Below are positions 25,149 to 54,179 of a DNA stretch of 64,000 nt, one piece after another. This DNA comes from Mesorhizobium sp. B1-1-8 (GTDB lineage: Bacteria > Pseudomonadota > Alphaproteobacteria > Rhizobiales > Rhizobiaceae): NCBI RefSeq assembly GCF_006442795.2, contig NZ_CP083956.1, forward strand, positions 5,061,501 to 5,125,500, in the 5' to 3' direction. The position numbers were made by a program, and so were the translations under genes. A model generated the notes under the pieces. That model worked only from the letters and a program-made list of their open reading frames with translations. It made no database searches and was not told the origin of the DNA. Position 1 is the first letter of the stretch; the number at the start of each line of letters is the position of its first letter.

Positions 25149-26123
25149 ATGTTACTTCGCAGCGTGATTTCGAAATTCTCAATGGGAGCTCTGGCACTTG
25201 CCGCGGCAGGCGCCCTGACACCGACGGCACGGGCCGCGGCACCGGAATCCAACGACCCGATCAAGATCGCGCTGTTCGACTGGACCAGCGTCAACCTCAA
25301 CGCCAAGATCCTCGGCGGCATTCTCGAAAAACTCGGCTACACGGTCGAATATCCGACCGCCGACTACCTCTCCAGCCTGACCACCGGCCTCACCAACGGC
25401 GACCTCGATGTCGGCCTGGAATTCTGGGACACCACCGCCGGCGAAGCGATGAAAGCCTCCGACGCCACCGGCCAGACCGAACGGCTCGGCAAGCTCGGCC
25501 CGAAAGCCAAGGAAGAGTGGTGGTTTCCCGAATATATGAAGGAAAAGTGCCCGACCTTGCCGGACTGGCACGCGCTGCTCGACGCTACCTGCGCGGCCTC
25601 GTTCTCGACGGCGGAGACCGCACCGAAGGGCCGTTATCTCGGCGGCCCAGTAACTTGGGAAGGCTTTGACGACGAGCGCGTCGCGGCGCTGAAACTGCCC
25701 TTCACCGTTATCCATGCCGGCACCGACGCGGCGATGTTCGCCGAGCTCGATTCCGCCTATCAGCGCAAGGCGCCGATCATGCTGTGGATCTATTCGCCGC
25801 ACTGGGCGCCGGCCAAGTACAAGGGCGAGTGGGTGCAATTCCCCGAATACACGCCGGAGTGCTACACCGATCCGAAATGGGGCACGAACCCCGACGCCAA
25901 ATACGACTGCGGCAAGCCGCACGGCGAAATCTGGAAATATTCCTGGTCCGGCATGAAGGACAAGTGGCCGGTCGCCTACAAGGTGGCCAAGGCCTATACG
26001 ATCGACACTGACGAGCTCAACAGGATGAGCGGCGAGATCGATCTCGATGGCAAAACGCCGGAAGACGTCGCCGCCGCCTGGATCGCCGCGCATGAGGCCG
26101 ACTGGAAAGCCTGGGCGCAGTGA
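25149..26123 (+). CDS. tmoX: TMAO/betaine-type ABC transporter solute-binding protein (TmoX-like)
   Basis: A 324-residue periplasmic binding protein of the OpuAC/ProX group, with a signal peptide ending near PTARAAA. Many tryptophans suited to an aromatic cage for a quaternary or N-oxide ammonium group are visible (EFWDTT, KEEWWFPEYM, VTWEGF, SPHWAP). From family alone it could bind glycine betaine, choline or proline betaine. I call it TmoX because the operon ends next to trimethylamine monooxygenase, the arrangement described for TMAO uptake in marine Roseobacter bacteria. AGGAG precedes ATG 25149 at good spacing. Confidence 0.8.
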   Translation: MLLRSVISKFSMGALALAAAGALTPTARAAAPESNDPIKIALFDWTSVNLNAKILGGILEKLGYTVEYPTADYLSSLTTGLTNGDLDVGLEFWDTTAGEAMKASDATGQTERLGKLGPKAKEEWWFPEYMKEKCPTLPDWHALLDATCAASFSTAETAPKGRYLGGPVTWEGFDDERVAALKLPFTVIHAGTDAAMFAELDSAYQRKAPIMLWIYSPHWAPAKYKGEWVQFPEYTPECYTDPKWGTNPDAKYDCGKPHGEIWKYSWSGMKDKWPVAYKVAKAYTIDTDELNRMSGEIDLDGKTPEDVAAAWIAAHEADWKAWAQ

Positions 26124-26146
26124 CCATTCCAACTGGAAAATGCGGG

Positions 26147-26168
26147 ACCCGGTCGTGAACGGCCGGGT
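26147..26168 (+). promoter_or_regulatory. Intercistronic hairpin tmoX-tmoV
   Basis: ACCCGG and CCGGGT flank a 10-base loop and are followed by a T-containing stretch (TTCTGGCTTTTG). In this place, behind a binding-protein gene, it probably acts as a partial terminator or 3' stabiliser. Confidence 0.45.
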
Positions 26169-26201
26169 TTCTGGCTTTTGCCATTCCAGAAGGACGCGTG
26201 A

Positions 26202-27278
26202 GTGACGGATTTGACTGAACAGGCATCACGCGTGGCGGGCAAGGAAGCCCCTGTCAAGCTTGCCTGCCGCAATGTCTGGAAGCTGTTCGGGGCAAACGCC
26301 GCCGGCTTCATCCGCGAGCGCGCCGGCAAGGCCAGCGCCGCCGAGATCGCCACGGCCGGGCTGGTGGGCGCGGTCCGTTCGGTCGACCTCGAAATCCGCC
26401 AGGGCGAGATCTTCATCATCATGGGCCTGTCAGGGTCCGGCAAGTCGACACTGGTGCGCTGCATGTCGCGTCTGGTCGAGCCGACGCATGGCAAGGTCGA
26501 ATTCGAAGGCAAGGACCTGCTCAAGATATCGGATGGCGAGCTGATCGAGCTCAGGCGCCATCGCATGGGCATGGTGTTCCAGAATTTCGCGCTGCTGCCG
26601 CATCTCAGCGTGATCGACAACATCGCCTTCCCGCTCAGCATCCAGGGGCAGGACCGGGCGACGCGCGAGAAGCGCGCGCAGGAAGTGATCGAGCTCGTCG
26701 GCTTGAGCGGACGCGAGCATTTCTATCCGCGCGAACTTTCCGGCGGCCAGCAGCAGCGCGTCGGCATCGCCCGCAGCCTCGCCACCAAGCCGGAGATCTG
26801 GTTCCTCGACGAGCCGTTCTCGGCGCTCGATCCGCTGATCCGGCGCGAGATGCAGGACGAATTGATGCGGCTGCAGACCATGCTGCACAAGACCGTCGTC
26901 TTCATCACGCATGATTTCGACGAGGCGATAAGGCTGGCCGACCGCATCGCCATCATGAAGGACGGCGAGATCATCCAGATCGGCACGCCGGAGGAATTGG
27001 TGGTCAAGCCGGCGACCGACTATGTTGCCGAGTTCACCCGTGACGTCGACCGCGCCAAGGTGATCTCGGCAAGGAGCCTGATGCGCGCCTGCGACGGCGC
27101 CGACCATGGCGGCAGCGTTTCGCCGGAGGCCAAGATCGCCAGCTTCTCGGCCGGCATCGTCGCCGCCGGCAAGCCCTTCGCCGTGGTCAACGGCAGCGGC
27201 AAGCCGATCGGCGAGGTGACGCCGCAGGCGGTGATCGAGCTTCTTGCCGGCATCGAACGCGCGCGAGCCGGTGCATGA
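26202..27278 (+). CDS. tmoV: TMAO/betaine-type ABC transporter ATPase (TmoV-like)
   Basis: A 358-residue ATPase of the ProV/OpuAA group. Walker A is GLSGSGKST (residues 75-83), the signature LSGGQQQR and Walker B IWFLDEPFSALDP. The N-terminal extension (KLFG, then the helical ERAGKASAAEI) is typical of betaine-type ATPases. About 90 residues follow the cassette, where ProV carries CBS domains. The start is GTG 26202 with AAGGA eight bases upstream. The last four bases overlap the permease start (ATGA), so the two are coupled. Confidence 0.85.
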   Translation: MTDLTEQASRVAGKEAPVKLACRNVWKLFGANAAGFIRERAGKASAAEIATAGLVGAVRSVDLEIRQGEIFIIMGLSGSGKSTLVRCMSRLVEPTHGKVEFEGKDLLKISDGELIELRRHRMGMVFQNFALLPHLSVIDNIAFPLSIQGQDRATREKRAQEVIELVGLSGREHFYPRELSGGQQQRVGIARSLATKPEIWFLDEPFSALDPLIRREMQDELMRLQTMLHKTVVFITHDFDEAIRLADRIAIMKDGEIIQIGTPEELVVKPATDYVAEFTRDVDRAKVISARSLMRACDGADHGGSVSPEAKIASFSAGIVAAGKPFAVVNGSGKPIGEVTPQAVIELLAGIERARAGA

Positions 27279-29254
27279 CGGTAACGGCCAGCGCCAGCCA
27301 AACGAGGCCGCCGGTTCAACGCTGGCTGGCGGTCTGGGCCGCGGCGCTTGCGGTCGTGCTCATCGTATTCCTGATGCAGAACCGCATGCCCTGGGCGGTG
27401 AACTATCCGGCCGATGCCGTCATTCCGGTCGCCGATTGGGTCAGCGCGTTGATGGGCTGGATAAAGGTGAACCTGTCCTGGCTGACCCGCTCGATCACGG
27501 CAGTGCTCGGCGTGCCGCTCGATTTCGCGCTCAATCTTCTGGCCAAGAATTTCAAGATCGGCCATGGCACAGAAGCCTTCACCTTGCCGCGCCTGTCCTG
27601 GGTCGGCGTCTGCGCGGCGGCGTACCTCGCCGGGCGCGCCGCTGGCGGCTGGAAACTCGGCGCGCTGGTCGGCGGCTGCTTTCTCTACATCGCGTTGTTC
27701 GGCCAATGGACCAGCGCCATGCTGACGCTGGCGCTGATCTCGATCGCGGTGCCGTTCTGCATCGTCACCGGCCTGTTGGTTGGCATCTGGGCGTGGCGCA
27801 AGCCCTGGGCCGAGCGGCTGGTGGTCTCCCCTGCCCTCGATTTGATGCAGACGATCCCGACCTTCGCCTACCTGATCCCGATGCTGCTTCTGTTCGGCAA
27901 CAGCCCGGTGTCGGCGATGATCGCCACCGCCATCTTCGCCACGCCGCCGATGGTGCGCGCGACCATGCTCGGGCTGGCGCGGGTGCCGGCCGAGATCGGC
28001 GAGTTCAGCGAGATGGCCGGCTGCACAGCCAGACAGAAACTGTGGCGGGTGCTGCTGCCGTCGGCGCGGCCGACGCTGATGGTCGGCGTCAACCAGGTGA
28101 TCATGCTGGCGCTCAATATGGTGATCATCGCCTCGATGATCGGCGCCGGCGGCCTTGGCTACGACGTGCTATTGGCGCTACGCGCGCTGAAGGTTGGCGA
28201 AGCGATGGAAGCGGGCCTTGCCATCGTGGCGCTCGCCATCGCGCTCGACCGGCTGAGCCAGGCAATGGCGCAGAATCAGGCGAAAGGCCGCGCCCATCGC
28301 CAGGCCAGCCTGCAATTCTGGCGGCGCTATCCCAACCTGACGCTGGCGCTCGCCATCCTTGTCGCCGCGACGCTGCTCAGCCTCTATGTGCCGGCCTTCG
28401 CGGCGGTGCCGAAGGCGATCACCTTCACCACCGCGCCGCTTTGGAAGGCGGCGGTGAACTGGGTGACGATCAATTTCTTCGACACCATCGAAGCCTTCCG
28501 CGTCGCGCTGATCCTCAACGTGCTCAACCCGGTGCGTGCCTTCTGCGAGGGCTTTCCATGGCTTGGCGCGGTGTTCCTGCTCGGCCTGGCCGGCTACCAG
28601 TTGGGGGGCTTACGCCTTGCCGCGCTGGTTGCTGCACTAACCGCCTTTTGCGCCGTCACCGGCCTCTGGGAAAAGACCATGGCGACGGTCTATCTTTGCG
28701 GCATCTCGGCCTTCATCGCTTGCCTGATCGGCATCCCGATCGGGCTGATGGCGGCGCGCAGCGACCGTTTCGAGAAGACCGTCACGCCGATCATCGACAC
28801 GCTGCAGGTGCTGCCGTCCTTCTGCTTCATCATTCCGGTGGTGATGCTGTTCCGCGTCGGCGACGTCACGGCGATGATCGCCACAGTCGCCTTCGCCGTG
28901 GTGCCGGCGATCCGCTACACCAATCACGGCATCAGGCAGGTGCCGCCGGCGCTGATCGAGGCGGCCAAGGTGTCGGGCTGCACGCCGCGCCAGACCTTCT
29001 TTCGCGTGCAGATGCCGCTGGCGCTTCCCGAAATCATGCTCGGCGTCAACCAGACGATCCTGATGGCGCTGGCGATGATCATCATCTGTGCCATGGTCGG
29101 CACGCGCGACCTCGGCCAGGAAGTGTTCATCGCGTTGTCCAAGGCCGATTCCGGCCGCGGCATCGTCGCGGGGCTGGCGATAGCCTTCATCGGCATCGTC
29201 GCCGACCGGCTGTTCAATGCCTGGACGGCGAAGGCTCGGGCAAGATTGGGTTAG
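27275..29254 (+). CDS. tmoW: TMAO/betaine-type ABC transporter permease, duplicated-domain form (TmoW-like)
   Basis: A 659-residue membrane protein about twice the usual ProW length. It holds two copies of the permease domain. Matching segments are LDLMQTIPTFAYLIPMLLLF with MAGCTARQKLWRVLLPSA in the first copy, and IDTLQVLPSFCFIIPVVMLF with VSGCTPRQTFFRVQMPLA in the second. One polypeptide may thus supply both halves of the membrane pore. The gene is convergent with tmm, ten bases away. Confidence 0.88.
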   Translation: MTVTASASQTRPPVQRWLAVWAAALAVVLIVFLMQNRMPWAVNYPADAVIPVADWVSALMGWIKVNLSWLTRSITAVLGVPLDFALNLLAKNFKIGHGTEAFTLPRLSWVGVCAAAYLAGRAAGGWKLGALVGGCFLYIALFGQWTSAMLTLALISIAVPFCIVTGLLVGIWAWRKPWAERLVVSPALDLMQTIPTFAYLIPMLLLFGNSPVSAMIATAIFATPPMVRATMLGLARVPAEIGEFSEMAGCTARQKLWRVLLPSARPTLMVGVNQVIMLALNMVIIASMIGAGGLGYDVLLALRALKVGEAMEAGLAIVALAIALDRLSQAMAQNQAKGRAHRQASLQFWRRYPNLTLALAILVAATLLSLYVPAFAAVPKAITFTTAPLWKAAVNWVTINFFDTIEAFRVALILNVLNPVRAFCEGFPWLGAVFLLGLAGYQLGGLRLAALVAALTAFCAVTGLWEKTMATVYLCGISAFIACLIGIPIGLMAARSDRFEKTVTPIIDTLQVLPSFCFIIPVVMLFRVGDVTAMIATVAFAVVPAIRYTNHGIRQVPPALIEAAKVSGCTPRQTFFRVQMPLALPEIMLGVNQTILMALAMIIICAMVGTRDLGQEVFIALSKADSGRGIVAGLAIAFIGIVADRLFNAWTAKARARLG

Positions 29255-29276
29255 CGGCCGATCGCTACTCGGCCGC
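29254..29276. terminator. Compact stem-loop between convergent tmoW and tmm
   Basis: GCGGCCGA (29254-29261) and TCGGCCGC (29269-29276) form a perfect 8-bp stem with a 7-base loop that overlaps both gene ends. It lacks a long T run on either side, so termination efficiency is uncertain. Confidence 0.45.
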
Positions 29277-30623
29277 CACGCCTTTCATCTCGAGATAGCT
29301 CTCCATGGAATCGTCGAGCGCCTGCAGCCAGGGCGTATGGTGCAGCGGCGCCATGGTGCCGGTCATCAGTGAGCGGTAGGCGTTGTCGCGGAAGCCCATG
29401 ATGTTCTCCATCTTGTGGTGCTCCCACTCCATGAAGGTCCGGTTCACCGCCTCGACGTCAAAGCCGGGATAGTCGGTCTGGTCCATCAGCTCCTTGGTGT
29501 AGTCGCCCTGGAACCAGATCATCTGCTCGGCGTCTTCCAGCGTCTCCTCGCGTGCCCGCCATTTCGCGCTGTGCTCGGCCATCGCCGCGGCGGAGGGCAG
29601 CTTGATGCGGCCCATGATGACGTCGCGCGCGTACCAGGCCTGCGCGTCGAACATGTTGAAGGTGTAGAACTGGTCCTGCATGCCGATGTAGAACAGTTTC
29701 GGATTCTTCTCCCAGACGACGCCCTCATAAAGGTCGAGCGGCCACATGCGGTTGGCGGTCTTCAGCTTGAGGTCGTCGGTGAGGAAGGGGAAGGAATGCA
29801 GATAGCCGGTGCACAGGATGATCGCGTCGACATCTTTGGTGCTGCCGTCCTTGAAATGCGCGGTCTTGCCGACGACCTTCTGCAGCAGCGGCACCTCTTT
29901 CCAGTTCTCCGGCCATTTGAAGCCCATCGGCTTCGAGCGGTAGCTGGAGGTGATCGATTTGGCGCCGTATTTATAGCACTGCGAGCCGATGTCCTCGGCG
30001 GAGTAAGAACGGCCGATGATCAATATGTCCTTACCCTTGAATTCCATCGCGTCGCGGAAGTCGTGGCTGTGCAGGATGCGGCCGTTGAAGGTCGGGAAGC
30101 CTTCGAAATAAGGCACGTTGGGCACCGAGAAATGACCCGAGGCGACGACGACATTGTCGAACTCTTCCGAATAGGTGACGTCGTTGCTGCGGTCATGCGC
30201 GGTGACGGTGAACTTCTTGCTCTCATCCGAATAGGTGACCATGCGCACCGGGCTGTTGAAGCGAACCCATTCGCGCAGGCCCGATTTCTCGACCCGGCCC
30301 TTGATGTAGTCCCACAGCACGGCGCGCGGCGGGTATGAGCCGATCGGCCGGCCGAAATGTTCCTCAAATGTGTAGTCGGCGAATTCGAGGCATTCCTTCG
30401 GCCCGTTCGACCAGAGGTAGCGGTACATCGAGCCGTGCACCGGGTCGCCATGCTCGTCGAGGCCGGTGCGCCAGGTGTAGTTCCACAGGCCGCCCCAGTC
30501 GGACTGTTTTTCGAAGCAGACGATCTCCGGAATCTCGGCGCCCTTGTCGGCAGCCGACTTGAATGCCCGCAGCTGCGCCAGACCGGACGGTCCGGCTCCG
30601 ATGACGGCAACACGAGTTTTCAT
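29265..30623 (-). CDS. tmm: Trimethylamine monooxygenase (flavin-containing, oxidises TMA to TMAO)
   Basis: A 452-residue flavin monooxygenase that uses NADPH and O2 to convert trimethylamine to TMAO. FAD site GAGPSG is at residues 9-14. The FMO fingerprint F-x-G-x-x-x-H-x-x-x-F is [11 protein letters not shown], and the NADPH site is GRSYSAED. The blocks [22 protein letters not shown] and [20 protein letters not shown] match bacterial Tmm as I remember it much better than other FMOs. ATG 30623 has GGAGG six bases upstream; 26 additional in-frame codons look spurious. The XRE-cupin regulator is divergent from it. Confidence 0.93.
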
Positions 30624-30651: not shown

Positions 30652-30860
30652 GAAACAAATTTCACTGACAGTGACAGTAATTGGCGCTCCTGTGCTGTCA
30701 ACTGCCTTGCGGCGAAACAGCGTTGCGCAGAATCAATTTTCAGGGAAAGCGATTGGGGGCCGGTCTCTCAAAAACAAGCCGATCCGCCATGGAAGACTTG
30801 TTGAGACAGTTGCGCTTCTGTATCGGCAACGAATATGTTCACCGAGAGTGAAAAAAATTC
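30652..30860. promoter_or_regulatory. tmm / XRE-cupin divergent control region
   Basis: GAAACAAATTTCACT (30652-30666) differs at one base from GAAAAAAATTTCACT at 35757-35771 in the dmmD divergent promoter. An overlapping dyad reads TTCAC-TGACA-GTGAC (30661-30675), and a second dyad TTCAC-CGAGA-GTGAA (30838-30852) lies 30 bases before the regulator start and runs into AGTGAAAAAAATTC. These are good candidates for binding sites of the regulator at 30882. Confidence 0.55.
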
Positions 30861-30881: not shown

Positions 30882-31610
30882 ATGACGAAAAAAACTTCCG
30901 GCCCCAAGCCTGGCGCGGATCCCGTCGCGGTTAAAACCAGGCCATCGCCGAAGGGCATTGGTCCGAACGGACGAACGATCCGCACGCCGCTGACTCAAGA
31001 CCCGCACGCCATTCGCGACACGCGCGAAAAAGTGCTGGAAGTGGCGATCGGCCGCGAAGTGCGGGCGTTCCGCAAGAAGCTCGGCATCACCGTCGCCGAC
31101 CTCGCCGCCGCCACCGACATTTCGCTCGGCATGCTGTCGAAAATCGAGAACGGCATCACCTCGCCGTCGCTGACGACGCTGCAGGCGCTGTCCAGAGCGC
31201 TTGGCGTTCCCGTCACCGCCTTCTTCCGCCGTTTCGAGGAGGAACGCAGCGCCGTCTTCGTCAAGGCCGGCGAAGGGCTCGACGTCGAGCGGCGCGGCAC
31301 GCGCGCCGGGCACCAATACAATCTGCTCGGCCATATCGGTTCCAACACCAGCGGGGTCATCGTCGAGCCTTACCTGATCACGCTGACCGAGGATTCGGAT
31401 GTGTTCCCGACCTTCCAGCACGAAGGCATGGAGTTCCTCTATATGCTGGAGGGCGAGGTCGTGTACCGGCATGGCAGCAACCTCTACCCGATGAAGCCGG
31501 GCGACAGCCTGTTCTTCGATGCCGACGCGCCGCACGGACCGGAAGAGCTGACAAAGCTGCCGATGCGCTATCTGTCGATTATCTGCTATCCGCAGAAAAG
31601 CGCAGGGTGA
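30882..31610 (+). CDS. XRE-family regulator with C-terminal cupin sensor domain
   Basis: A 242-residue regulator. After a basic, lysine/proline-rich tail of about 45 residues comes an XRE helix-turn-helix (VADLAAATDISLGMLSKIEN, SPSLTTLQALSRALG). A cupin_2 domain follows near the C-terminus (FLYMLEGEVVYRHGSNLYPM, then KPGDSLFFDADAPHG). Such regulators sense small metabolites through the cupin barrel. Placement divergent from tmm and convergent to the dmm operon makes it the obvious local regulator of methylated-amine use. Whether it activates or represses is not visible. Confidence 0.9.
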   Translation: MTKKTSGPKPGADPVAVKTRPSPKGIGPNGRTIRTPLTQDPHAIRDTREKVLEVAIGREVRAFRKKLGITVADLAAATDISLGMLSKIENGITSPSLTTLQALSRALGVPVTAFFRRFEEERSAVFVKAGEGLDVERRGTRAGHQYNLLGHIGSNTSGVIVEPYLITLTEDSDVFPTFQHEGMEFLYMLEGEVVYRHGSNLYPMKPGDSLFFDADAPHGPEELTKLPMRYLSIICYPQKSAG

Positions 31611-31625
31611 GGCGCTCGACGAAGG

Positions 31626-31762
31626 CCCCCTCACCCGGATTGCCAAGGCCGAATTGCGAAGGGCAATTCGGGGCAATCCGACCTCTCCCCGAGGGGAGAG
31701 GAGACGCCAGCCCCTTCTCCCCCGCGGGGAGAAGGTGGCCGCGAAGCGGCCGGATGAGGGGG
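31626..31762. repeat. Mosaic palindromic intergenic repeat (rhizobial type)
   Basis: Outer arms CCCCCTCACCCGG (31626-31638) and CCGGATGAGGGGG (31750-31762) match at 12 of 13 positions. Inside are several further hairpins: GAATTGC/GCAATTC, CTCTCCCC/GGGGAGAG, CTTCTCCCC/GGGGAGAAG, and GGCCGC/GCGGCC. The element fills the whole gap between the convergent regulator and dmmC and may end transcription from both sides. Confidence 0.65.
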
Positions 31763-31769
31763 AGTCGCG

Positions 31770-33785: not shown

Positions 33786-34378
33786 CGGAAAATCTCCTCC
33801 ATCGGAGGAATTTCTGAGCGGTCCTCGGCATTGATGCAGACGCCCTGAAACGCCGCCAGCCGCCGCGAATAATGATCGCGCACCAGAAGCAGCAGGCCGC
33901 AATGCGAACAGAGCGCCGGCTGCGTCGTCACGTTCTCGGTGATGCCCTTGCAGTGCACGCACTGCATGCGTCGGGCCAGCGAGCCGCGATGCTCGGTCTC
34001 GATCGAAGTGTGGTCGATGCCGGCTTCGAGCGCCACCTGCATGGCCTGGCCGATCAGCCCTTCAGTGCCGCAGAGATAGAGGCGCAGGCCCATATGGGCG
34101 TTGGTCAGCGTCTGCTTGAGCCTTGGCAGCAGGCTGGCGAAGGACGGCGGCAAATGGAGCTGCGCCGGCTTCAGCGCTTCGAGGGCGGCAATGTGCTTGC
34201 CCTCAGGGCCGGCGATGAAGACGATCTCGGCTCCGTCGAAAAAACCGTCCGGAGCTTTCCCGGCCATATCGATGATCGCGAGCGCGCCTTCCGCATCCGC
34301 GACGAAAAGATGATGCTTGCCGGGCTGTGGGGACAAGGTTCCGTAAACGGGCCGGCTGATGATCGTCTTGGCTGCCAT
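33782..34378 (-). CDS. dmmA: Dimethylamine monooxygenase subunit (DmmA family)
   Basis: A 198-residue protein of the small subunit family found with DUF3445 demethylases. The N-terminal two thirds look like a nucleotide- or flavin-binding fold of a reductase (LRLYLCGTEGLIGQAMQVAL). The C-terminus has a four-cysteine metal site (MQCVHCKGITENV, then LCSHCGLLLLVRDHYSRRL). The exact role in electron transfer is not established by this sequence. It is translationally coupled to dmmB and lies 39 bases after dmmD. Confidence 0.85.
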   Translation of the reverse strand: MAAKTIISRPVYGTLSPQPGKHHLFVADAEGALAIIDMAGKAPDGFFDGAEIVFIAGPEGKHIAALEALKPAQLHLPPSFASLLPRLKQTLTNAHMGLRLYLCGTEGLIGQAMQVALEAGIDHTSIETEHRGSLARRMQCVHCKGITENVTTQPALCSHCGLLLLVRDHYSRRLAAFQGVCINAEDRSEIPPMEEIFR

Positions 34379-35551: not shown

Positions 35552-35755
35552 CCGATCGTCCTCCATGCGATAGCGTTGATGTTCCCTGCTCCTGCTCGGT
35601 GGCGGAGCTTGGGCTGAATATTGATCGCAAACGAGGAAGCGCCGCAATCCCCTTGAAGCAAATAATTTCATTGTCAGGCAAAATTTTTTACATGAAACGA
35701 ACGGTTCACAAGCCGTAAATTCGTCTTGACAATTGCGAAACTCGGGCGGAATTTA

Positions 35756-36119: not shown

Positions 36120-36129
36120 GGGGAAAATC

Positions 36130-36507: not shown

Positions 36508-36522
36508 CCGGGGACAAGACCC

Positions 36523-36684: not shown

Positions 36685-36698
36685 GTGGAGATTGAACG

Positions 36699-38102: not shown

Positions 38103-38111
38103 GCAGAGAGA

Positions 38112-38137: not shown

Positions 38138-38149
38138 CGGCGTGTCGAG

Positions 38150-42216: not shown

Positions 42217-42252
42217 CACAAACTAGCAATGCCACATAAGCGAGGAACTATA

Positions 42253-45200: not shown

Positions 45201-48181
45201 TGGTCGGCGATCAGGCAAACCGTCTCGCATCCGGCGGCCTCATCGACCGCTCGGCCGCGCTCAGTTTCCGTTTCGACGGCAAGACGTTTTTGGGCTTCAA
45301 GGGCGACACGCTGGCTTCCGCGCTGGTCGCCAACGGCGTCACGCTCGTCGGCCGTTCATTCAAATATCACCGCCCGCGCGGCATTCTCACCGCCGGGTCG
45401 GAAGAGCCCAACGCACTGGTCGAACTGCGTAGCGGCGCCAGGCGCGAGCCGAACACCAAGGCGACCACGGCCGAGCTCTATGAAGGCCTCGAAGCCGCCA
45501 GCCAGAACCGCTGGCCGTCGCTGCGCCACGATGTGATGGCGGTCAACCAGCTGTTCGCGCCGATCTTCGTCGCCGGCTTCTACTACAAGACCTTCATGTG
45601 GCCGGCGAAGTTCTGGGAAGCGATCTACGAGCCGGCGATCCGCCGCGCCGCCGGCCTCGGCCGCGCTGCCGGCATTGCCGATCCGGATCACTACGACAAG
45701 GCCTGGGCGCATTGCGACGTGCTGATCGCTGGCTCCGGCCCGGCGGGTCTGGCGGCGGCACTTGCAGCGGGCCGGAGCGGCGCGCGGGTCATCCTGTGCG
45801 AAGAAGATTTTGTCCCCGGCGGCCGCCTGCTGGCCGATGGCGGCACCATCGACGGACTGCCGGCCGCTGAGTGGGTTGCACGCGCGCTCGGCGAACTCGC
45901 CGCGATGCCCGATGTGCGCATCATGACGCGCACGACTTTGTTCGGCGTCTATGATAGTGGCATCTATGGTGCGATCGAGCGGGTCAACGACCATCTGCCG
46001 ACGCCGCCCGAACACCAGGTGCGGCAGCGCCTATGGCGCATCGTGGCCAGGCGCTGCGTCGTCGCGGCCGGCTCCATCGAACGGCCGATCGTCTTTGCCG
46101 GCAACGACACGCCGGGCGTGATGATGGCGTCCGCCATGCGCAGCTATATCGGGCGTTATGCGGCGGCGCCGGCAAAGCGCATGGCGCTGTTCACCAACAA
46201 CGAGGATGGCTGGCGCACCGTGGAGATGGCGCTGGGTGCTGGACTGCAGGTCGCGGCGGTGATCGACGCCCGGCCGGACATTTCGGCTGCTCATCGCTCG
46301 CTCGCCTCCAAGAACGGCTTCACGGTCCTGCATGGCTCGGTCAGCGGCGTCGACGGCGGCAAGGACGGCGTGCGCAAGATCGCCGTGTCGCTCATCGGCG
46401 GCGCCCGGGCCGAGGTCGAGGCCGACGGGCTTGCCATCTCCGGCGGCTGGAACCCGGCGGTCGGGCTGACCTCCTACCATCGCGGCCGGCCCAAATGGCG
46501 CGACGACATCGCCGCCTTCGTGCCTGATGGCGCACCGCCCGGCATGGTCGCGGCGGGCGCCGCCAACGGTGCCTTCGGTCTTGGCGCCTGCCTGCGCGAA
46601 GGTTTTGAGGCGGGTGCAGCAGCTGCGCATAACGCCGGACGCGGCGGCAATGTCGGGTCCATGCCTGTCGCGGACGATGAAGCCTTTTCGCTGACGCCGC
46701 TCTGGCATGTGAAAAGCAAGGGCAAGGCCTTCGTCGACCAGCAGCACGACGTCACTGCATCCGACATCGAACTGGCGCAGCGCGAGGGGTTTGAATCGGT
46801 CGAGCACCTGAAGCGCTACACCACGCTCGGCATGGCCACCGACCAGGGCAAGACCTCCAACGTCGCCGGCCTCGCCATCATGGCTGCGGTCACCGGTAAG
46901 TCGATCCCCGAGACCGGCACGACGATCTACCGGCCGCCCTATGTGCCGGTCGCGATCGGCGCCTTCGCCGGCCATCACCGCGACGAGACTTTCCATGCGA
47001 CGCGGCTGACGCCGTCGCATCACTGGGCCGCCGAGCAAGGTGCTGTTTTTGTCGACACCGGCTTATGGAAACGCGCGCAGTGGTACCCCCGCGCCGGCGA
47101 GAAGGACTGGCTGGAATCGGTTACCCGCGAGGTCAAGACGGTGCGCTCGGGCGTTGGCTTTTGCGATGTCTCGACGCTCGGCAAGATCGACGTGCACGGC
47201 CCTGACGCGGGCGCCTTCCTCGACCGCGTCTACATCAACACCTTCTCCACCCTTGCCGTCGGTAAGGCGCGCTATGGGCTGATGCTGCGCGAGGACGGCA
47301 TCGTCTATGACGACGGCACCACGTCGCGGCTGGCCGATGACCATTATTTCCTGACCACCACCACCGCCAAGGCCGGGCTGGTGATGCAGCACCTGGAATT
47401 CTGCCGGCAGGTGCTGTTTGCGGAACTCGATGTGCAGCTGACCTCGGTCTCCGACCAGTGGGCGCAATTCTCCATCGCCGGACCGAAGACCCGCGACCTG
47501 CTGAAGGAAATCGTCGATCCGGCCGAGGACCTTTCCAACGAAGGCTTTCCGTTCATGGGCGCGCGGGAAGTCGCGTTGCGCGGCGGCATCAGGGCAAGGC
47601 TGTTCCGCATCTCCTTCTCCGGCGAGATGGCCTTCGAGATTTCCGTGCCGGCGCGCTATGGCGAAGCGCTGGTGCGCAATCTGATGATCGCCGGCAAGCA
47701 ATTTGGCGTCACGCCCTACGGCACCGAGGCGCTTGGCGTGATGCGCATCGAGAAGGGCCATGTCGCGGGGCCGGAATTGAGCGGCACCACGACGGCCGCC
47801 GATCTCGGCCTCGGCAAGATGATGTCGACCAAGAAGGATTTCATCGGCCGCGTCATGGCCGGCCGCGAGGCGCTGGTGGCACCGAACCGGCAGGTCGTGG
47901 TCGGCATCAAGCCGACCGACAAGGCGCGCCGCCTGCGCTCCGGTGCGCACATCATTCCGAAGGGCGAGACACCCGGTCCCGACAACGACCAGGGCTATGT
48001 CACGTCGGTCTGCTTCTCGCCGGTGCTCGACCAGTGGATCGGACTCGGCCTTGTCGAACGCGGCCGCGAGCGCATCGGCGAGATCGTGCGCGCGCACGAT
48101 CCGCTGCGCGGCGAGGAGTATGATGTCGAGCTCTGCAATTCCGTCTTCTACGATCCCGATGGAGAGCGCCAGCGTGGCTGA
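45200..48181 (+). CDS. mgdC: N-methylglutamate dehydrogenase subunit C (sarcosine oxidase alpha-like)
   Basis: A 993-residue multidomain chain. Residues about 15-100 are a 2Fe-2S-like small domain (GRSFKYHRPRGILTAGSEEP). They are followed by an NAD-binding FAD-type reductase (LIAGSGPAGLAAALAAGRSG) and a C-terminal aminomethyltransferase (GcvT-like) domain (TLGKIDVHGPDAGAFLDRVY, GVTPYGTEALGVMRIEKGHV). The folate domain captures the one-carbon unit. ATG 45200 is preferred to GTG 45197. Its end overlaps mgdD by eight bases. Confidence 0.88.
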   Translation: MVGDQANRLASGGLIDRSAALSFRFDGKTFLGFKGDTLASALVANGVTLVGRSFKYHRPRGILTAGSEEPNALVELRSGARREPNTKATTAELYEGLEAASQNRWPSLRHDVMAVNQLFAPIFVAGFYYKTFMWPAKFWEAIYEPAIRRAAGLGRAAGIADPDHYDKAWAHCDVLIAGSGPAGLAAALAAGRSGARVILCEEDFVPGGRLLADGGTIDGLPAAEWVARALGELAAMPDVRIMTRTTLFGVYDSGIYGAIERVNDHLPTPPEHQVRQRLWRIVARRCVVAAGSIERPIVFAGNDTPGVMMASAMRSYIGRYAAAPAKRMALFTNNEDGWRTVEMALGAGLQVAAVIDARPDISAAHRSLASKNGFTVLHGSVSGVDGGKDGVRKIAVSLIGGARAEVEADGLAISGGWNPAVGLTSYHRGRPKWRDDIAAFVPDGAPPGMVAAGAANGAFGLGACLREGFEAGAAAAHNAGRGGNVGSMPVADDEAFSLTPLWHVKSKGKAFVDQQHDVTASDIELAQREGFESVEHLKRYTTLGMATDQGKTSNVAGLAIMAAVTGKSIPETGTTIYRPPYVPVAIGAFAGHHRDETFHATRLTPSHHWAAEQGAVFVDTGLWKRAQWYPRAGEKDWLESVTREVKTVRSGVGFCDVSTLGKIDVHGPDAGAFLDRVYINTFSTLAVGKARYGLMLREDGIVYDDGTTSRLADDHYFLTTTTAKAGLVMQHLEFCRQVLFAELDVQLTSVSDQWAQFSIAGPKTRDLLKEIVDPAEDLSNEGFPFMGAREVALRGGIRARLFRISFSGEMAFEISVPARYGEALVRNLMIAGKQFGVTPYGTEALGVMRIEKGHVAGPELSGTTTAADLGLGKMMSTKKDFIGRVMAGREALVAPNRQVVVGIKPTDKARRLRSGAHIIPKGETPGPDNDQGYVTSVCFSPVLDQWIGLGLVERGRERIGEIVRAHDPLRGEEYDVELCNSVFYDPDGERQRG

Positions 48182-48794
48182 TTTTTCCTGGGAAGTCCGC
48201 AGCCCGCTGCAACACGCGCTCGTCGCGGGGCCGTATGGGGCACGGGGCGAAGCCGGCGTGACGCTGACCGAGATCCGCAATTTCGGCCTCGTCCAGGTGA
48301 TGGCGCGACGCGGCAAGGCCGGCGAGATGGTCAAGGCCGCGCAGGCGCGGTTCGGCGTCGCGGCTCCGGAAACGCCGAAGGCGGTGGGCACGGCGGACGC
48401 AATGCTGATCTGGTCGGGACCGGACCAGTTCTTCGTCCTGTCGAAGGGTGGCAGGCACGGGATTGAAGCGCTCGCTCCTGTCTTTGCAGGGTCGGCTTCG
48501 CTTTCCGACCAGTCACATGCGCGGGCTCTGATCAGCGTTTCAGGTGAGAAGGCGCGGGCGATGCTTGCGAAGCTGTCGTCTATCGACCTGCATCCCGATG
48601 TGTTCGCGATTAACTCAGCGGCGGCGACCTCGGTGGATCACACCAGCGTCACGCTTTGGCGAGGTAGTGATCGCAACGGACAGGCGGTGTTCAATCTGCT
48701 CGTGTTCGCGACTTTCGCTGAGAGCCTGTGGCACACGATGCTGGATTCGGCTGCGGAGTATGGCGTCGTTATCCGGCATTCTGAAGAATTGTAG
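48174..48794 (+). CDS. mgdD: N-methylglutamate dehydrogenase subunit D (sarcosine oxidase gamma-like)
   Basis: A 206-residue SoxG-like chain (MADFSWEVRSPLQHAL, ARGEAGVTLTEIRNFGLVQV, WSGPDQFFVL, LSDQSHARALISVSG). GTG 48174 is favoured because GGAGAG (48161-48166) stands seven bases ahead of it and the product then begins in the family style; the ATG at 48159 would add five residues. It is the last gene of the mgsABC-gmaS-mgdABCD operon. Confidence 0.85.
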   Translation: MADFSWEVRSPLQHALVAGPYGARGEAGVTLTEIRNFGLVQVMARRGKAGEMVKAAQARFGVAAPETPKAVGTADAMLIWSGPDQFFVLSKGGRHGIEALAPVFAGSASLSDQSHARALISVSGEKARAMLAKLSSIDLHPDVFAINSAAATSVDHTSVTLWRGSDRNGQAVFNLLVFATFAESLWHTMLDSAAEYGVVIRHSEEL

Positions 48795-48911
48795 CTGGAT
48801 AGTTTTCGGGCCCGGAGTGATGGGCACCTTGCTGTAACAGATTGCATCTCCGTAGACGGAGCAGCCCAGCGCGACTTCCAGGGGGTCAAGTTACGCAATA
48901 TCCTCTTAAAA

Positions 48912-49577
48912 CTACCAAGGACGACGAACGCAGTGGTTCGGGCTGTATGTGGTCGGGACTGCGTCCATGGCTTTACTATATTCGGAAAAGCTTGGAATGA
49001 GCCCCAAATTGATGGCCTGGGCAACGCATCTGTCACCAACGTTCGAGGCGTTTGCCTGAGAAAGGCAATTTTCCAACTTTGTGATTGAAATTGGCGGGGG
49101 AGCCTTGATTGAGCTATAACTGATCCGGCCGGAGCGAATGGATACGACCGTTATATCGCCCTTCCTCCATCTAGCAGGGTCAAAGATGTAGTAGAGATTG
49201 CGCTTATCAGGATATTCTGACGCTGTCGCAGCGTAGATTGTCATGACAAGCACGTTGGCAAATGACCTAACTCCCATATCAACTTTCATATCCGAATCAG
49301 AGGCGGGGAGTTCGAGCCTCCCCCCGAGCTCAGAGGCAAGTTCTGAAAGCGCTTCGCCATCGCCTTCTCGCGCCATTGGCCAAAGCAGCGCCCACTGTTT
49401 TTGACATTGGTTATTGTAGTAGGCGTCTGCGGCAACCTTCAGACGCTCCTCACGGGTCAAAGTCGACGTAAGGCTTGATTTACCTGTGAGATCACATCCG
49501 CAGAGAAAGGAAGAGACCAGAAGACCGCAACATACTTTCACTGTAAACCGGGTCGGTAGGCTCATGAAAAGCCCCAT
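48912..49577 (-). CDS. Putative lipoprotein of unknown function, lower GC than neighbours
   Basis: A 221-residue protein without recognised relatives. ATG 49577 has GGAG eight bases upstream (an alternative start is 49565). The N-terminus is a hydrophobic signal ending in a lipobox-like LCGC, then a polar region. The mature part includes several cysteines (NNQCQKQWALLW, ENCLSQANASNVGDRC), which suggest disulfides in the periplasm. Base composition is clearly lower in GC than the flanking mgd and tdm genes, a sign of recent acquisition. It is on the opposite strand to both neighbours and does not look related to amine metabolism. Confidence 0.65.
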   Translation of the reverse strand: MGLFMSLPTRFTVKVCCGLLVSSFLCGCDLTGKSSLTSTLTREERLKVAADAYYNNQCQKQWALLWPMAREGDGEALSELASELGGRLELPASDSDMKVDMGVRSFANVLVMTIYAATASEYPDKRNLYYIFDPARWRKGDITVVSIRSGRISYSSIKAPPPISITKLENCLSQANASNVGDRCVAQAINLGLIPSFSEYSKAMDAVPTTYSPNHCVRRPW

Positions 49578-49846
49578 TCCGTCATCTCCATCAAAGGGCC
49601 GAGTCTCGGCACCCACCGGTTGTATCAGCACCTTGTCGTCGAGTGTATTGTATTGTGGGAGCGCGAAAGCCTCGGATGAGGGGCAGTGCCGACGTTCGGG
49701 ATCAGGGTAGTCGGCAAGAACCTACCTGAACGAGCAGCCCCAATGACGGCACCGCAGCCTTGCCAAATCCATCTCCACTGCTATTCTCCCGGCTAAAATA
49801 ATTTTACACACAGGCAAACTGTTTCTCCCTCGGAGGAGGGTTTGAG

Positions 49847-52216
49847 ATGAGCCAGTCGCCCTACCCCGAAGTCGCTGCCGGCCCGCCGCGGCCGAGCCTG
49901 ATCCTGCGGCCCGGCCAGATCGCGCTGCCGCCCGGCATGGAGCGCTATACCGTACAGGGCAATGGCGCGGTGCTGATCGATGTCGAGGCCGGCGATACGG
50001 TCAGCGTACGCAATGTCGAGGGCGGACAGCCTTGCGAGCTGCTCGCCTGGGACAAGGCCGGCGTCACCGATCCCGGCATTTTCGGCGAACGGGCCAACAG
50101 CAATGCCGCCGGCATCAAGGCGATGCTGATCGATGGCGACGACAGCCTTTCGGCACTGCGCCGTGGCCTCGAGCGCCGCCAGGTTCAGCTTGACCAGCCG
50201 AAAGCCGTGCGCGTCTTCGGTGGCGCCACGCCGGCCGGCACCGAGCAGACATTCGCAATACAGCGCGACGGCGCGATGCTGATTGCCGCGCCCGGCGGGC
50301 CGATGCTGGTCGACGGCCATAACACCGCGACGCCACTCACGGTGATCGTGCGCCGCGCCACAATCCGCCTGAAGGCGAAGTCGGAGCTGCCAGATCCGCT
50401 CACCGATCCGGTGCTTGATCTCAGAGTGCATTCGGCGACGGCGGAATCCTACTTCGTCAAGGCCGGCGACTATCTGCAGATCATCGATGTCGACGGCCGC
50501 CAATGCACCGACTTCCAGTGTTTTTCGGCGCGCAAGCTGGACAAGGGACGCGACCACCCGCTCGACGTGACGACAACCCGCACGCTGATGGGCACCGCTT
50601 ATCCGCTGCCCGGCCTGCATTCCAAATACTACGACCAGGACATGGAGCCGCTGGTCGAGGTGGTGCAGGACACATGCGGGCGGCACGATGCCTTCGCGCT
50701 CGCCTGCGCGGCCAAATATTACGACGACATCGGCTATCCCGGCCACATCAACTGCTCGGAGAATTTCAACCGGGCGCTGGACGGCAAAGGCGTCAACCCG
50801 CGCGCGGGCTGGATGGCGATCAACTTCTTCTTCAACACGGCAATCGACGCGCATGGCGTAATGGTCTCGGACGAGCCATGGTCGCGCCCGGGCGACTATG
50901 TGCTGCTCAGGGCGCTGACCGACATCGTCTGCGTGTCGTCGGCCTGCCCGGACGACACGACGCCCGCCAATGGCTGGAATCTTACCGACATCCATGTGCG
51001 CACCTATTCCGGCCAGCACAAGTTCTCGCGAGCGATCGCCAGACGCATGACGCCCGATTCGGAACCGAAAATGACCCGCGAGACAGCCTTTCATTCGAGT
51101 TTTGCCAAGCACACGCGCGACTTCGTCGAGTACAGGGGCTATTGGCTCGCCAACTCCTTCGCCAAGGAAGGCGCCATCGCCGAATACTGGGCCTGCCGCC
51201 AAGCAGCCGTGATTATGGACCTGTCGCCGCTGCGCAAATTCGAGGTCACCGGTCCGGACGCCGAAGCGCTGCTGCAATACACGCTGACCCGCGATGTCAA
51301 GAAACTCGGCGTCGGTCAGGTCGTCTATTCGGCGATGTGCTACGGGCATGGCGGCATGATCGACGACGGCACGTTGCTGCGGCTCGGCAAGGACAATTTC
51401 CGCTGGGTCGGCGGCGACGATCTTTCCGGCGAGTGGCTGCGCGACACGGCAACGAAGCTCGGGCTCAACGTGCTGGTGCGCTCTTCCACCGACCAGATGC
51501 ACAACATCGCCGTGCAAGGGCCGAAGAGCCGCGATATCCTGAAGGAGGTCGTCTGGACCTCGCCGGTGCAGCCCTCGATCGGCGAACTCGAATGGTTCCG
51601 TTTCGCGATCGGCCGCATCGGCGGCGGCAACGGCATTCCCGTCGTCGTCTCGCGCACCGGCTATACCGGCGAGCTCGGTTACGAGATCTGGTGCCATCCG
51701 CGCGACGCCGAAAAAGTGTTCGACGCCGTCTGGGAGGCGGGCCAGCCGCACGGGCTGAAACCGATGGGGCTGCAGGCGCTCGACATGGTGCGCATCGAAG
51801 CCGGCCTGATCTTCGCCGGCTACGAGTTCTCCGACCAGACCGATCCCTTCGAGGCCGGCATCGGCTTCACCGTACCGCTGAAGACCAAGGCCGACGACTT
51901 CATCGGCCGCGAGGCGCTGATCCGGCGTAAGGAGCATCCGCAAACCAAGCTGGTCGGCCTCGACATCGACGCCAATATCCCGGTCGGCCATGGCGACTGC
52001 GTGCATGTCGGGCGTGCCCAGATCGGCGTCGTCACCTCCGGCATGCGCTCGCCCCTGCTTGGAAAGACCATCGCACTGGCAAGGCTCGATGTTATCCATG
52101 CCGAGATCGGCACGGAGGTCGAGATCGGCAAGCTCGACGGACATGCCAAGCGGCTGCCGGCGCGCGTCGTCGCCTTCGCCCATTACGATCCGCAAAAGAC
52201 AAGGCCGCGCTCCTGA
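49847..52216 (+). CDS. tdm: Trimethylamine N-oxide demethylase (DUF1989 plus GcvT domains)
   Basis: A 789-residue two-domain enzyme that demethylates TMAO to dimethylamine and passes the formaldehyde to tetrahydrofolate. After an N-terminal cupin-like part, the catalytic DUF1989 domain spans about residues 190-370, with cysteines suited to a zinc site (VDGRQCTDFQCFS, DTCGRHDAFALACAAKYYDD, GHINCSENFNRAL). The C-terminal GcvT domain begins near residue 425 (AVIMDLSPLRKFEVTGPDAE, VVVSRTGYTGELGYEIWCHP). The domain pair matches Tdm of Methylocella and Roseobacter. GGAGGAG lies about eight bases before ATG 49847. Confidence 0.9.
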   Translation: MSQSPYPEVAAGPPRPSLILRPGQIALPPGMERYTVQGNGAVLIDVEAGDTVSVRNVEGGQPCELLAWDKAGVTDPGIFGERANSNAAGIKAMLIDGDDSLSALRRGLERRQVQLDQPKAVRVFGGATPAGTEQTFAIQRDGAMLIAAPGGPMLVDGHNTATPLTVIVRRATIRLKAKSELPDPLTDPVLDLRVHSATAESYFVKAGDYLQIIDVDGRQCTDFQCFSARKLDKGRDHPLDVTTTRTLMGTAYPLPGLHSKYYDQDMEPLVEVVQDTCGRHDAFALACAAKYYDDIGYPGHINCSENFNRALDGKGVNPRAGWMAINFFFNTAIDAHGVMVSDEPWSRPGDYVLLRALTDIVCVSSACPDDTTPANGWNLTDIHVRTYSGQHKFSRAIARRMTPDSEPKMTRETAFHSSFAKHTRDFVEYRGYWLANSFAKEGAIAEYWACRQAAVIMDLSPLRKFEVTGPDAEALLQYTLTRDVKKLGVGQVVYSAMCYGHGGMIDDGTLLRLGKDNFRWVGGDDLSGEWLRDTATKLGLNVLVRSSTDQMHNIAVQGPKSRDILKEVVWTSPVQPSIGELEWFRFAIGRIGGGNGIPVVVSRTGYTGELGYEIWCHPRDAEKVFDAVWEAGQPHGLKPMGLQALDMVRIEAGLIFAGYEFSDQTDPFEAGIGFTVPLKTKADDFIGREALIRRKEHPQTKLVGLDIDANIPVGHGDCVHVGRAQIGVVTSGMRSPLLGKTIALARLDVIHAEIGTEVEIGKLDGHAKRLPARVVAFAHYDPQKTRPRS

Positions 52217-52469
52217 CGGCCGCCTCGCAGGCTTGATAAGACCGCTTTGCTGGCTATCACTGGTGATGGGCGAGGCCCCTGTTCACAACCGTGATGTGCA
52301 CAGCGCGACAAAACGCTTGACGTGAAAGCGCGCCGGATCGATCTTCACTCTTAAGAAAAAAATACGACTGAGTGGAAACACGACGGTCGGACCATGATGG
52401 CCGGGGAGCAAGCTTCGCAAGAGCCGAAGCGTCGCCGGCGGGGAACTGAAAAAAGGGGAAGACAATCAT

Positions 52470-54179
52470 ATGAGCACGATAAGCACCGTCCTGGAGCAGC
52501 CTGCCGAAAGCAAGCTGCTCAGGCACATCGACTGGCGCGGCGCCTTCTGGGTGGCGAGCGGCGTTCCCGCTCTCGTCCTGTTCTCGATCGGCGGCATTGC
52601 CGGCACGACGGGAAAGCTGGCCTTCCTGATCTGGACGGTGTCCATGATCATGGGTTTCCTGCAATCCTTCACCTATGCCGAGATCGCCGGCCTGTTCCCG
52701 AACAAGTCGGGCGGCGCCTCGATCTACGGCGCTACCGCCTGGCTGCGCTACTCGAAATTCATCGCGCCGCTGTCTGTCTGGTGCAACTGGTTCGCCTGGT
52801 CGCCAGTGCTGTCGCTCGGCTGCTCGATCGCCGCCGCCTATATCCTCAACGCACTGGCGCCGGTACCGATCTTCACCGAGACCTCGCCGGACGTCGTTGC
52901 CTATATCGCCGCGCATGCCGGAACGGCGCCCGCCGACGCCATCACCGCCGTCACGGCCGCCGCGACGCCGGCAATCCGCACCTGGTCGCTGTGGAGCCAT
53001 ACGCTGGGGCCGGTGTCCTTCACCTTCAACGCCACTTTCTTCATCGGCGCGGTGCTGATGCTGGTCATCTTCTCGATCCAGCATCGCGGCATCCTCGGCA
53101 CCGCCAGCGTGCAGAAATACATCGGCCTCCTGGTCATCATCCCGATGCTGATCGTCGGCGTGGTGCCGATCTTCACGGGGCAGATCGACTGGGCGAATTT
53201 CTCGCCGCTGGTGCCGCTGGCGGCCGCCTATGCACCCGAACCCGGCTCCTGGAACATCGCCGGCTGGACACTGGCGCTCGGCGGCATGTTCATCGCGGCC
53301 TGGTCGACCTACGGCTTCGAGACCGCGGTGTGCTACACGTCGGAGTTCAAGAACCCCGGCACCGACACCTTCAAGGCGATCTTCTATTCCGGCCTGCTCT
53401 GCATGCTCTTGTTCATCCTCGTGCCCTTCACCTTCCAGGGCGTGCTGGGCTTGAACGGCATGCTGGCGACGCCGATCGTCGACGGCTCCGGCGTGGCCGA
53501 TGCCTTGGCCGGCATGGTCGGCGGCGGCAACATCATCCACAGTCTTCTGGTGATGCTGATGATCCTGGCGCTGGTGCTGTGCATCATGACTGCGATGGCC
53601 GGCTCCTCGCGCACGCTCTACCAGGGCTCGGTCGACGGCTGGCTGCCGCGCTATCTCAGCCATGTCAACGAGCATGGTGCCCCGACGCGGGCCATGTGGA
53701 CCGACCTCTGCTTCAACCTAATCGTGCTGGCCATTGCCTCGGCCGATGCGACGAGCTTCTTCTTCATCCTCGCCGTGTCGAACTGCGGCTACATCATCTT
53801 CAACTTCCTCAACCTCAACGCCGGCTGGATCCACCGCATCGACAACGGCCACATCAACCGGCCGTGGCGGGCGCCGAGCTGGCTCTTGGGGATCGGGGCA
53901 ATCTTCGCCTACGTCAATGCGATTTTCATGGGCGCCGGCGCCAAGGTGTGGAACCCGATGGCGCTGTGGGCCGGGCTGATCACCGCCGCGCTGATCATCC
54001 CGGTGTTCTGCTTCCGCCACTACATCCAGGACGGCGGCAAGTTTCCCGACCACATGCTGGCCGATCTCGGCATGAGTTCGGCCGATCTCAAGGTCAAGAA
54101 GGCGGGAATGCTGCCCTATCTGACGCTGGCGGCCGGCGTGGCGGTGATGCTGATCGCCAACTGGGTGTTCGTCATCTGA
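52470..54179 (+). CDS. APC-family permease, second in the locus
   Basis: A 569-residue secondary transporter with about twelve to fourteen helices, larger than the one at 36699. Family features are VLFSIGGIAGTTGKLAFLIW, GLFPNKSGGASIYGATAWLR and YGFETAVCYTSEFKNPGTDT. The long loop between early helices (FTETSPDVVAYIAAHAGTAP) is an insertion compared with common APC proteins. It is 253 bases downstream of tdm and likely moves a methylated amine, but the substrate cannot be read. The upstream region contains TTCACTCTTAAGAAA, similar to the dmmD-region dyad. Confidence 0.9.
   Translation: MSTISTVLEQPAESKLLRHIDWRGAFWVASGVPALVLFSIGGIAGTTGKLAFLIWTVSMIMGFLQSFTYAEIAGLFPNKSGGASIYGATAWLRYSKFIAPLSVWCNWFAWSPVLSLGCSIAAAYILNALAPVPIFTETSPDVVAYIAAHAGTAPADAITAVTAAATPAIRTWSLWSHTLGPVSFTFNATFFIGAVLMLVIFSIQHRGILGTASVQKYIGLLVIIPMLIVGVVPIFTGQIDWANFSPLVPLAAAYAPEPGSWNIAGWTLALGGMFIAAWSTYGFETAVCYTSEFKNPGTDTFKAIFYSGLLCMLLFILVPFTFQGVLGLNGMLATPIVDGSGVADALAGMVGGGNIIHSLLVMLMILALVLCIMTAMAGSSRTLYQGSVDGWLPRYLSHVNEHGAPTRAMWTDLCFNLIVLAIASADATSFFFILAVSNCGYIIFNFLNLNAGWIHRIDNGHINRPWRAPSWLLGIGAIFAYVNAIFMGAGAKVWNPMALWAGLITAALIIPVFCFRHYIQDGGKFPDHMLADLGMSSADLKVKKAGMLPYLTLAAGVAVMLIANWVFVI

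Follow-up and report, generated by a model that had tools for sequence, protein, structure and literature searches.

A predicted complete methylated-amine catabolic cluster in Mesorhizobium sp. B1-1-8, with a conserved six-gene membrane block and a candidate XRE-cupin regulator

The 64-kb stretch of Mesorhizobium sp. B1-1-8 analysed here (the window; contig NZ_CP083956.1, positions 5,061,501 to 5,125,500, from a genome of 6.19 Mb in two contigs) contains a methylated-amine gene cluster at positions 25149-54179. The locus raises the question of whether one region of a rhizobial genome provides the whole route from trimethylamine (TMA) or trimethylamine N-oxide (TMAO) to glutamate, and whether such clustering is as unusual as a preliminary description of this DNA had supposed. 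Gene calling and family searches placed all steps from TMA and TMAO to glutamate and one-carbon (C1) folate units in open frames, and a chance origin of the gene set can be excluded. Judged from sequence, the locus is very probably a complete cluster for methylated-amine catabolism, ordinary for Mesorhizobium, in which a membrane block of six genes and the regulator RegX would have the roles proposed below.

From 5' to 3', the cluster comprises tmoX-, tmoW-, and tmoV-like genes (plus strand), tmm (minus), regX (plus), dmmC-dmmB-dmmA-dmmD (minus), the six block genes (plus), and mgsABC-gmaS-mgdABCD (plus), followed by a weak open reading frame (ORF; minus) and by tdm and tmoP (plus). The complete 29-kb route from TMA or TMAO to glutamate that had been claimed for this Mesorhizobium-type genome was borne out, with the key enzymes passing curated cut-offs and residue checks. 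Every gene named in the preliminary description is present and open at its place, with the starts corrected for tmm, dmmB, mgsB, and mgdD; its list omits tmoP (52470-54179) and the membrane block (35832-39153). The genes for substrate entry and oxidation are as follows.

25149-26123, plus strand: tmoX-like gene for the substrate-binding protein of an ABC importer (PF04069)
26202-27278, plus strand: tmoW-like gene for an ATPase (TIGR01186, 344 bits; cut-off 326.6)
27275-29254, plus strand: tmoV-like gene for a permease with two permease domains (PF00528, two stretches)
29265-30623, minus strand: tmm, trimethylamine monooxygenase (ORF opens at 30701, likely start 30623; NF058570, 854.6 bits; cut-off 675)
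49847-52216, plus strand: tdm, TMAO demethylase (NF053776, 1268.4 bits; cut-off 1100)
52470-54179, plus strand: tmoP, TMAO permease (NF053774, 892.2 bits; cut-off 690)

Tmm shares 70.5% identity over 447 residues with the solved bacterial FMO/Tmm 8b2d, the alignment starting at residue 27. At the nine positions that we take to form the Tmm active site, eight residues are identical, including Tyr207, and Ser321 is replaced by Thr. Tdm matches the solved structure 9q59 with 1193 bits; based on the M. silvestris numbering of key residues (PMC12560246), zinc-site residues Cys263, Cys279, and Cys343 together with His276, Asp346, and Asp198 (six of six) were found at matching spacing with one constant offset. 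With the same offset, Leu618 also matches, and Phe487 of the GcvT domain corresponds to Leu, a position that an indel may have shifted.

The genes for the use of dimethylamine (DMA) and monomethylamine (MMA) follow.

31770-32810, minus strand: dmmC, haem-dependent N-demethylase alpha subunit (PF11927, 239 bits)
32820-33785, minus strand: dmmB, reductase with a 2Fe-2S domain (likely start 33785; PF22290 and Fer2)
33782-34378, minus strand: dmmA (PF22290 and PF22289, over cut-off)
34418-35671, minus strand: dmmD, GcvT-like folate protein (PF01571 and PF08669)
39249-40145, plus strand: mgsA (GATase_6/7)
40150-40881, plus strand: mgsB (ORF opens at 40093, likely start 40150; GXGXG)
40888-42216, plus strand: mgsC (Glu_synthase, PF01645)
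42229-43560, plus strand: gmaS, gamma-glutamylmethylamide synthetase (TIGR03105, 670.3 bits; cut-off 469.6)
43597-44850, plus strand: mgdA, SoxB-like (TIGR01373, 690.9 bits; cut-off 529.45)
44925-45200, plus strand: mgdB, SoxD-like (PF04267, over cut-off)
45197-48181, plus strand: mgdC, SoxA-like (TIGR01372, 1524.5 bits; cut-off 1164)
48159-48794, plus strand: mgdD, SoxG-like (start at 48159 or 48174; PF04268, over cut-off)

The DMA monooxygenase is encoded by four linked minus-strand genes transcribed in the order D-A-B-C, with a catalytic subunit of the HODM type; DmmC shares 64% identity over 334 residues with the haem-dependent N-demethylase 5lte. GmaS is 65% identical to 7cql over 433 residues, and all 14 of the RhGmaS positions checked (taken from PMC7948447), including Asp177, Glu186, and Arg312, are identical, with Ala at the position of the ammonia-binding Asp of glutamine synthetase (Asp50). 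The grouping of the predicted Tmm, Tdm, DmmC, and GmaS with characterised enzymes is supported by profile scores, solved relatives, and conserved residues. The SoxB-, SoxD-, SoxA-, and SoxG-like subunits are encoded in a single operon adjoining gmaS, and because of this linkage to gmaS and mgsABC, we infer that MgdABCD would act on N-methylglutamate (NMG) rather than on sarcosine.

In the proposed route, TMAO would enter through TmoP and possibly through the ABC system as well, and TMA would be oxidised to TMAO by Tmm. Tdm would then convert TMAO to DMA and formaldehyde, and DmmABC would convert DMA to MMA; the C1 unit would probably be transferred to folate by DmmD. GmaS and MgsABC are predicted to produce gamma-glutamylmethylamide and NMG, respectively, from which MgdABCD would regenerate glutamate and yield methylene-folate. 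The six-gene block most likely serves methylamine uptake, and RegX is most likely the regulator of the NMG and upstream genes, acting via AATTTCAYTSWC-type sites.

The frequency of this arrangement was assessed with a profile of mp2, the second gene of the membrane block, searched against genome contigs. This search yielded 104 confirmed loci, the best 80 of which were kept; 74 of these were counted as Mesorhizobium-type (70 so named and 4 relatives), 62 of them with full 10-kb flanks. Since the loci were picked via a block gene, the sample is uninformative on Mesorhizobium strains lacking the block. Of the 62 full-flank Mesorhizobium-type loci, 60 have at least 16 of the 17 genes between tmm and mgdA (inclusive) in the same order as the window, tmm-regX-dmmDABC-[membrane block]-mgsABC-gmaS-mgdA. 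In the two non-collinear loci (L087 and L088), tmm and dmm are missing, but regX, the block, and the NMG genes are retained; no Tdm was found in their genomes at E <= 1e-100, and these apparently represent methylamine-only lineages. Tdm was present in 45 of the 47 Mesorhizobium genomes searched, which were reached via 48 of the 80 kept loci, and in 30 of 151 family genomes at E <= 1e-100. In three of the 45 (the genomes of L033, L039, and L049), Tdm is divergent (72-77%), and regX has neither a tmm nor a dmm match next to it.

In the phylum sample, the mp2 profile matched the genome of the window and eight further genomes of the same genus, and no genome of this genus was among the 20 non-matching genomes listed (364 more were non-matching). 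In two of these eight (G753 and G756), the block is more divergent (mp2 53-54%) and has different surroundings (L134 and L135, respectively); in L135, tdm, tmm, and the divergent block lie side by side as an alternative arrangement. These two cases indicate that the arrangement, though common in the genus, is not shared by all of its members. A plasmid search returned 523 matching records, 304 of them from Rhizobium, none of which covers 80% of the query.

The same gene set is clustered in Ruegeria pomeroyi (PMC13390433; PMC5520151) and lies in one island in Paracoccus sp. N5 (PMC4543880), and its genomics has been described in Aminobacter (PMC8235418); the pathway is published for Ruegeria, Paracoccus, Methylocella, and Aminobacter. 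As in the window, R. pomeroyi DSS-3 (SPO1548-1588) combines the same enzymes and route with tmoXWV in a cluster (PMC13390433; PMC5520151), but its regulators are TmaR (AraC) and TmoR (GntR) instead of the XRE-cupin RegX. Aminobacter shares tmm, tdm, tmoP, dmmDABC, and the NMG genes, and in A. aminovorans KCTC 2477 the chromosome carries the demethylation genes, whereas the NMG and most serine-cycle genes are located on a plasmid (PMC8235418). One of the matching plasmid records, pRlvB of Rhizobium leguminosarum UPM791 from a pea nodule, carries tmoP, tdm, tmm, dmmDABC, gmaS, mgsABC, regX, and mgdABCD in ~27 kb. Unlike the cluster in the window, this one is plasmid-borne and is interrupted by purU, a gene for a GlxA regulator, and min genes, and it shows no match to the block or to tmoXWV within the 32.8 kb read; the min genes inside the region are minCDE (L181:6172-8050). 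Mesorhizobium sp. 1M-11, of the same genus, possesses tmm and the NMG genes and grows on TMA (PMC4653772). It additionally has a methylamine dehydrogenase (PMC4653772), for which PF06433 was unmatched here but also in all controls of that search. As both the gene set and the growth of 1M-11 are already in print, the pathway claim is an ordinary one.

The supposition that the gathering of all steps in one place is unusual was therefore not sustained: they are clustered in R. pomeroyi, Paracoccus sp. N5, and pRlvB, and the synteny search of Mesorhizobium suggested earlier, run here via the block gene, returned the collinear order given above. Tdm was also widely present in the genomes searched, and the inference of rarity was wrong. 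The one-locus arrangement was likewise rejected as a special feature, given the order shared by Mesorhizobium-type loci and the Rhizobium plasmid with the pathway in ~27 kb. The cluster is an ordinary trait of these relatives.

The membrane block lies between dmm and mgs, with its genes arranged head to tail at gaps of -4 to 47 bases. It contains the following genes, in which transmembrane (TM) helices were counted by a simple hydropathy scan.

35832-36119, plus strand: mp1, block gene 1, small two-TM protein of 95 amino acids (no family over cut-off; conserved tail HYxxDKxxIY)
36130-36507, plus strand: mp2, small two-TM protein of 125 amino acids (no Pfam family over cut-off; 979 homologues at E <= 1e-3)
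36523-36684, plus strand: mp3, one-TM protein of 53 residues (no family; in 22 of 22 representative loci)
36699-38102, plus strand: APC permease (PF00324/PF13520; 78% mean column identity over 15 loci)
38150-38839, plus strand: hyp229, N-terminal TM helix and soluble domain (no family)
38836-39153, plus strand: mp105, last block gene, small membrane protein (no family over cut-off; 4-base overlap with hyp229)

Except for the permease, no block protein matched a Pfam family over cut-off. The nearest NCBIfam model of the APC gene is that for an ethanolamine permease (TIGR00908), an assignment rejected at 169.1 bits against a cut-off of 381.75. An ORF at 38215-39153 was also rejected as a single gene, as its 3' part is the gene at 38836-39153 and its 5' part overlaps 38150-38839 in another frame. 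The AlphaFold model of hyp229 has a mean pLDDT of 89.2, and the top match of its soluble domain in both fold comparisons was TtfA (6t84), a weak match with 8-9% identity and TM scores of 0.35 and 0.42. TtfA is an accessory protein of MmpL3 (PMC6593404), whereas the transporter near hyp229 belongs to a different family.

All six genes are present in all 66 full-flank loci and in 78 of the 80 kept loci, the exceptions (L020 and L080) being on short contig ends. In distant lineages (L091, L129, L131, L132, L133, and L136-L138), the block is whole and its position relative to the NMG genes varies; among other distant regions, hyp229 went undetected in L130, the L134 region stops shortly past the permease gene, and L139 is a fragment. 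Hits of the mp2 profile came from 6 of the 385 class-sample genomes and 14 of the 398 phylum-sample genomes. Adding seven genomes that were reached via loci gives 25 distinct genomes with mp2, and a gmaS match was found in 24 of them, the sole exception (G221) being an 82% complete genome. In the class sample, gmaS occurs in 68 of 385 genomes, and mp2 and gmaS co-occur (Fisher p = 0.0008), though four of the six mp2 genomes belong to one genus. The gmaS matches in G538, G539, and G864, all outside the class, are 42-43% identical, which makes their substrate less certain. In three loci (L086, L089, and L093), the 10-kb flanks of the block are free of NMG genes, and these genomes carry gmaS elsewhere. 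The block in these three loci adjoins a gene whose start, as read from translation, resembles a topoisomerase/gyrase B subunit.

The regulator gene and the conserved elements upstream of the operons are as follows.

30882-31610, plus strand: regX, XRE helix-turn-helix and cupin regulator, divergent from tmm (PF01381 (HTH_3) and PF07883)
30655-30675, no strand assigned: conserved upstream element at tmm, AATTTCACTGAC (footprint of 61 distinct sequences including the window; exact match)
35660-35680, no strand assigned: conserved upstream element at dmmD, AATTTCATTGTC (footprint of 69 distinct sequences including the window; exact match)
35757-35785, no strand assigned: conserved upstream element at mp1, AATTTCACTCTC, with the palindrome CACTCT..AGAGTG (footprint of 69 distinct sequences including the window)

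The TMA regulators TmaR and TmoR are of the AraC and GntR types, respectively (PMC13390433), and RegX, with HTH_3 and cupin domains, was rejected as either of them. In Rhodobacteraceae, XRE, GlxA, and amt genes have already been reported next to clusters of this kind (PMC7574528). regX was found in 21 of 40 block-negative and 5 of 10 block-positive gmaS regions, and it is kept in L087 and L088, where tmm and dmm are absent; this distribution ties regX to the NMG genes. The dedicated regulator announced in the preliminary description is therefore a real gene, but its occurrence goes with the NMG genes and not with tmm.

Elements of the TTTCA type are conserved upstream of tmm, regX, dmmD, and mp1 and in a looser form at mgsA (footprints of 61, 69, and 76 distinct sequences), and we infer that these may be bound by RegX. 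The exact 12-base form occurs three times in the 64 kb, always in intergenic positions, a count that is circular because the motif-defining sites were taken from the window. In other lineages, a RegX box upstream of mgsA (p <= 0.05) was found in 6 of 27 regX-positive and 0 of 13 regX-negative cases (Fisher p = 0.15); the corresponding values were 2/27 and 0/24 for gmaS, 1/5 and 0/8 for mp1, 1/4 and 1/3 for dmmD, and 0/1 and 0/2 for tmoP, with 2/27 for regX itself.

Several findings weigh against parts of the proposed reading. The SoxD- and SoxG-like subunits score under their NCBIfam cut-offs (115.0 versus 116.5 and 85.3 versus 143.95, respectively), while both pass the Pfam gathering scores. 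Outside Mesorhizobium, the link between motif and RegX is weak and only suggestive: a good match lies between tdm and tmm of L135, where no regX adjoins (regX-negative: tmm 1/2, tdm 1/2), and this site is among the best matches outside the Mesorhizobium-type collinear loci. In the predicted TMAO pocket of the TmoX-like protein, four of the seven residues of the reference TmoX (Trp55, Trp102, Phe106, Glu131, Trp177, Phe220, and Trp222; PMC8918994) are identical; Trp55, Trp102, Glu131, and Trp177 are kept, and there are two aromatic swaps (Phe220 to Trp and Trp222 to Tyr) and one change of Phe106 to Ala. Owing to these three changes, TMAO is a likely but not secure substrate of this protein. It is conceivable, though somewhat doubtful, that the ABC system at 25149-29254 instead imports choline, betaine, or carnitine, a view favoured by the changes F106A, F220W, and W222Y from R. 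pomeroyi TmoX, by the additional presence of TmoP, and by the occurrence of tmoV in just 34 of the 62 full-flank loci (the spacing of the window would fit a 10-kb flank, and a wider one would be missed). However, TmoX (4xz6) is by far the best solved relative, with 40% identity over 303 aligned residues and 231 bits against 40.8 for the next chain, and Glu131 and three of the four box tryptophans are retained. The chances appear about even that the pathway supplies nitrogen only and that the methyl groups are not growth carbon: M. loti with gmaS is reportedly not methylotrophic (PMC4653772, citing others) and the hprA homologue of this genome is split over two frames, whereas a serine-cycle cluster (mcl, mtkA at 85%, mtkB, and ppc) is present in the genome and methylated amines serve strain 1M-11 as its only source of carbon and nitrogen (PMC4653772). 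The hprA match is at L185:7075-8039 (G000:C1 about 2821574-2822538), and its division between two reading frames means that it may be broken or wrongly sequenced; gck was not found within the 20 kb read around the serine-cycle cluster. With this gene content, growth on methyl carbon is possible.

With regard to the block, its transport role rests on the neighbourhood and the APC family match, and the idea that the block replaces Amt near gmaS gained no support: matches to Amt occurred in 2 of 10 regions with the block and in 8 of 40 without it (Fisher p = 1), a comparison in which some regions are truncated by contig ends and, among the ten with the block, L134 and L135 stop short of gmaS. It is improbable that the block, instead of being a transporter, serves electron transfer or assembly on the membrane side of NMG dehydrogenase. 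The block does travel with the NMG genes, the source annotations of two mp2 homologues refer to oxidase components (P0116, 'cbb3-type cytochrome oxidase subunit 3', and P0095, 'cytochrome oxidase assembly protein ShyY1'), and mp2 has a below-threshold match to FixQ (E 0.093). On the other hand, alignments revealed no invariant His or Cys in mp2 and one invariant His in mp1, leaving no obvious cofactor ligands in these two proteins; the largest block member is a highly conserved APC permease; and the blocks of L086, L089, and L093 are remote from NMG genes. A multi-subunit methylamine importer remains the leading, unproven guess. More specifically, and with a little less than even confidence, we propose that the block may be a new multi-subunit LeuT-type APC methylammonium transporter with three small membrane subunits and a TtfA-like anchored accessory protein, which spread as a unit among Alpha- and Gammaproteobacteria with the methylglutamate pathway.

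The cluster is bordered by short-chain dehydrogenase genes on the left and by RND efflux genes and a TetR gene on the right. The ORF between mgdD and tdm (48912-49631, minus strand, 239 amino acids) has a low coding score and no family, and the GC content there is locally low (0.587 at 48001-50000); it may be a foreign insert or a non-gene. The gap between regX and dmmC (31611-31769) contains GC-rich, hairpin-like inverted repeats resembling a repeated intergenic element.

The locus draws attention to a membrane module of wide conservation and to a regulator, both linked to methylamine use, for neither of which we found a test in the literature. The genomes sampled here show the full set of TMA/TMAO genes to be a regular component of many rhizobia from soil and nodules rather than a marine speciality.

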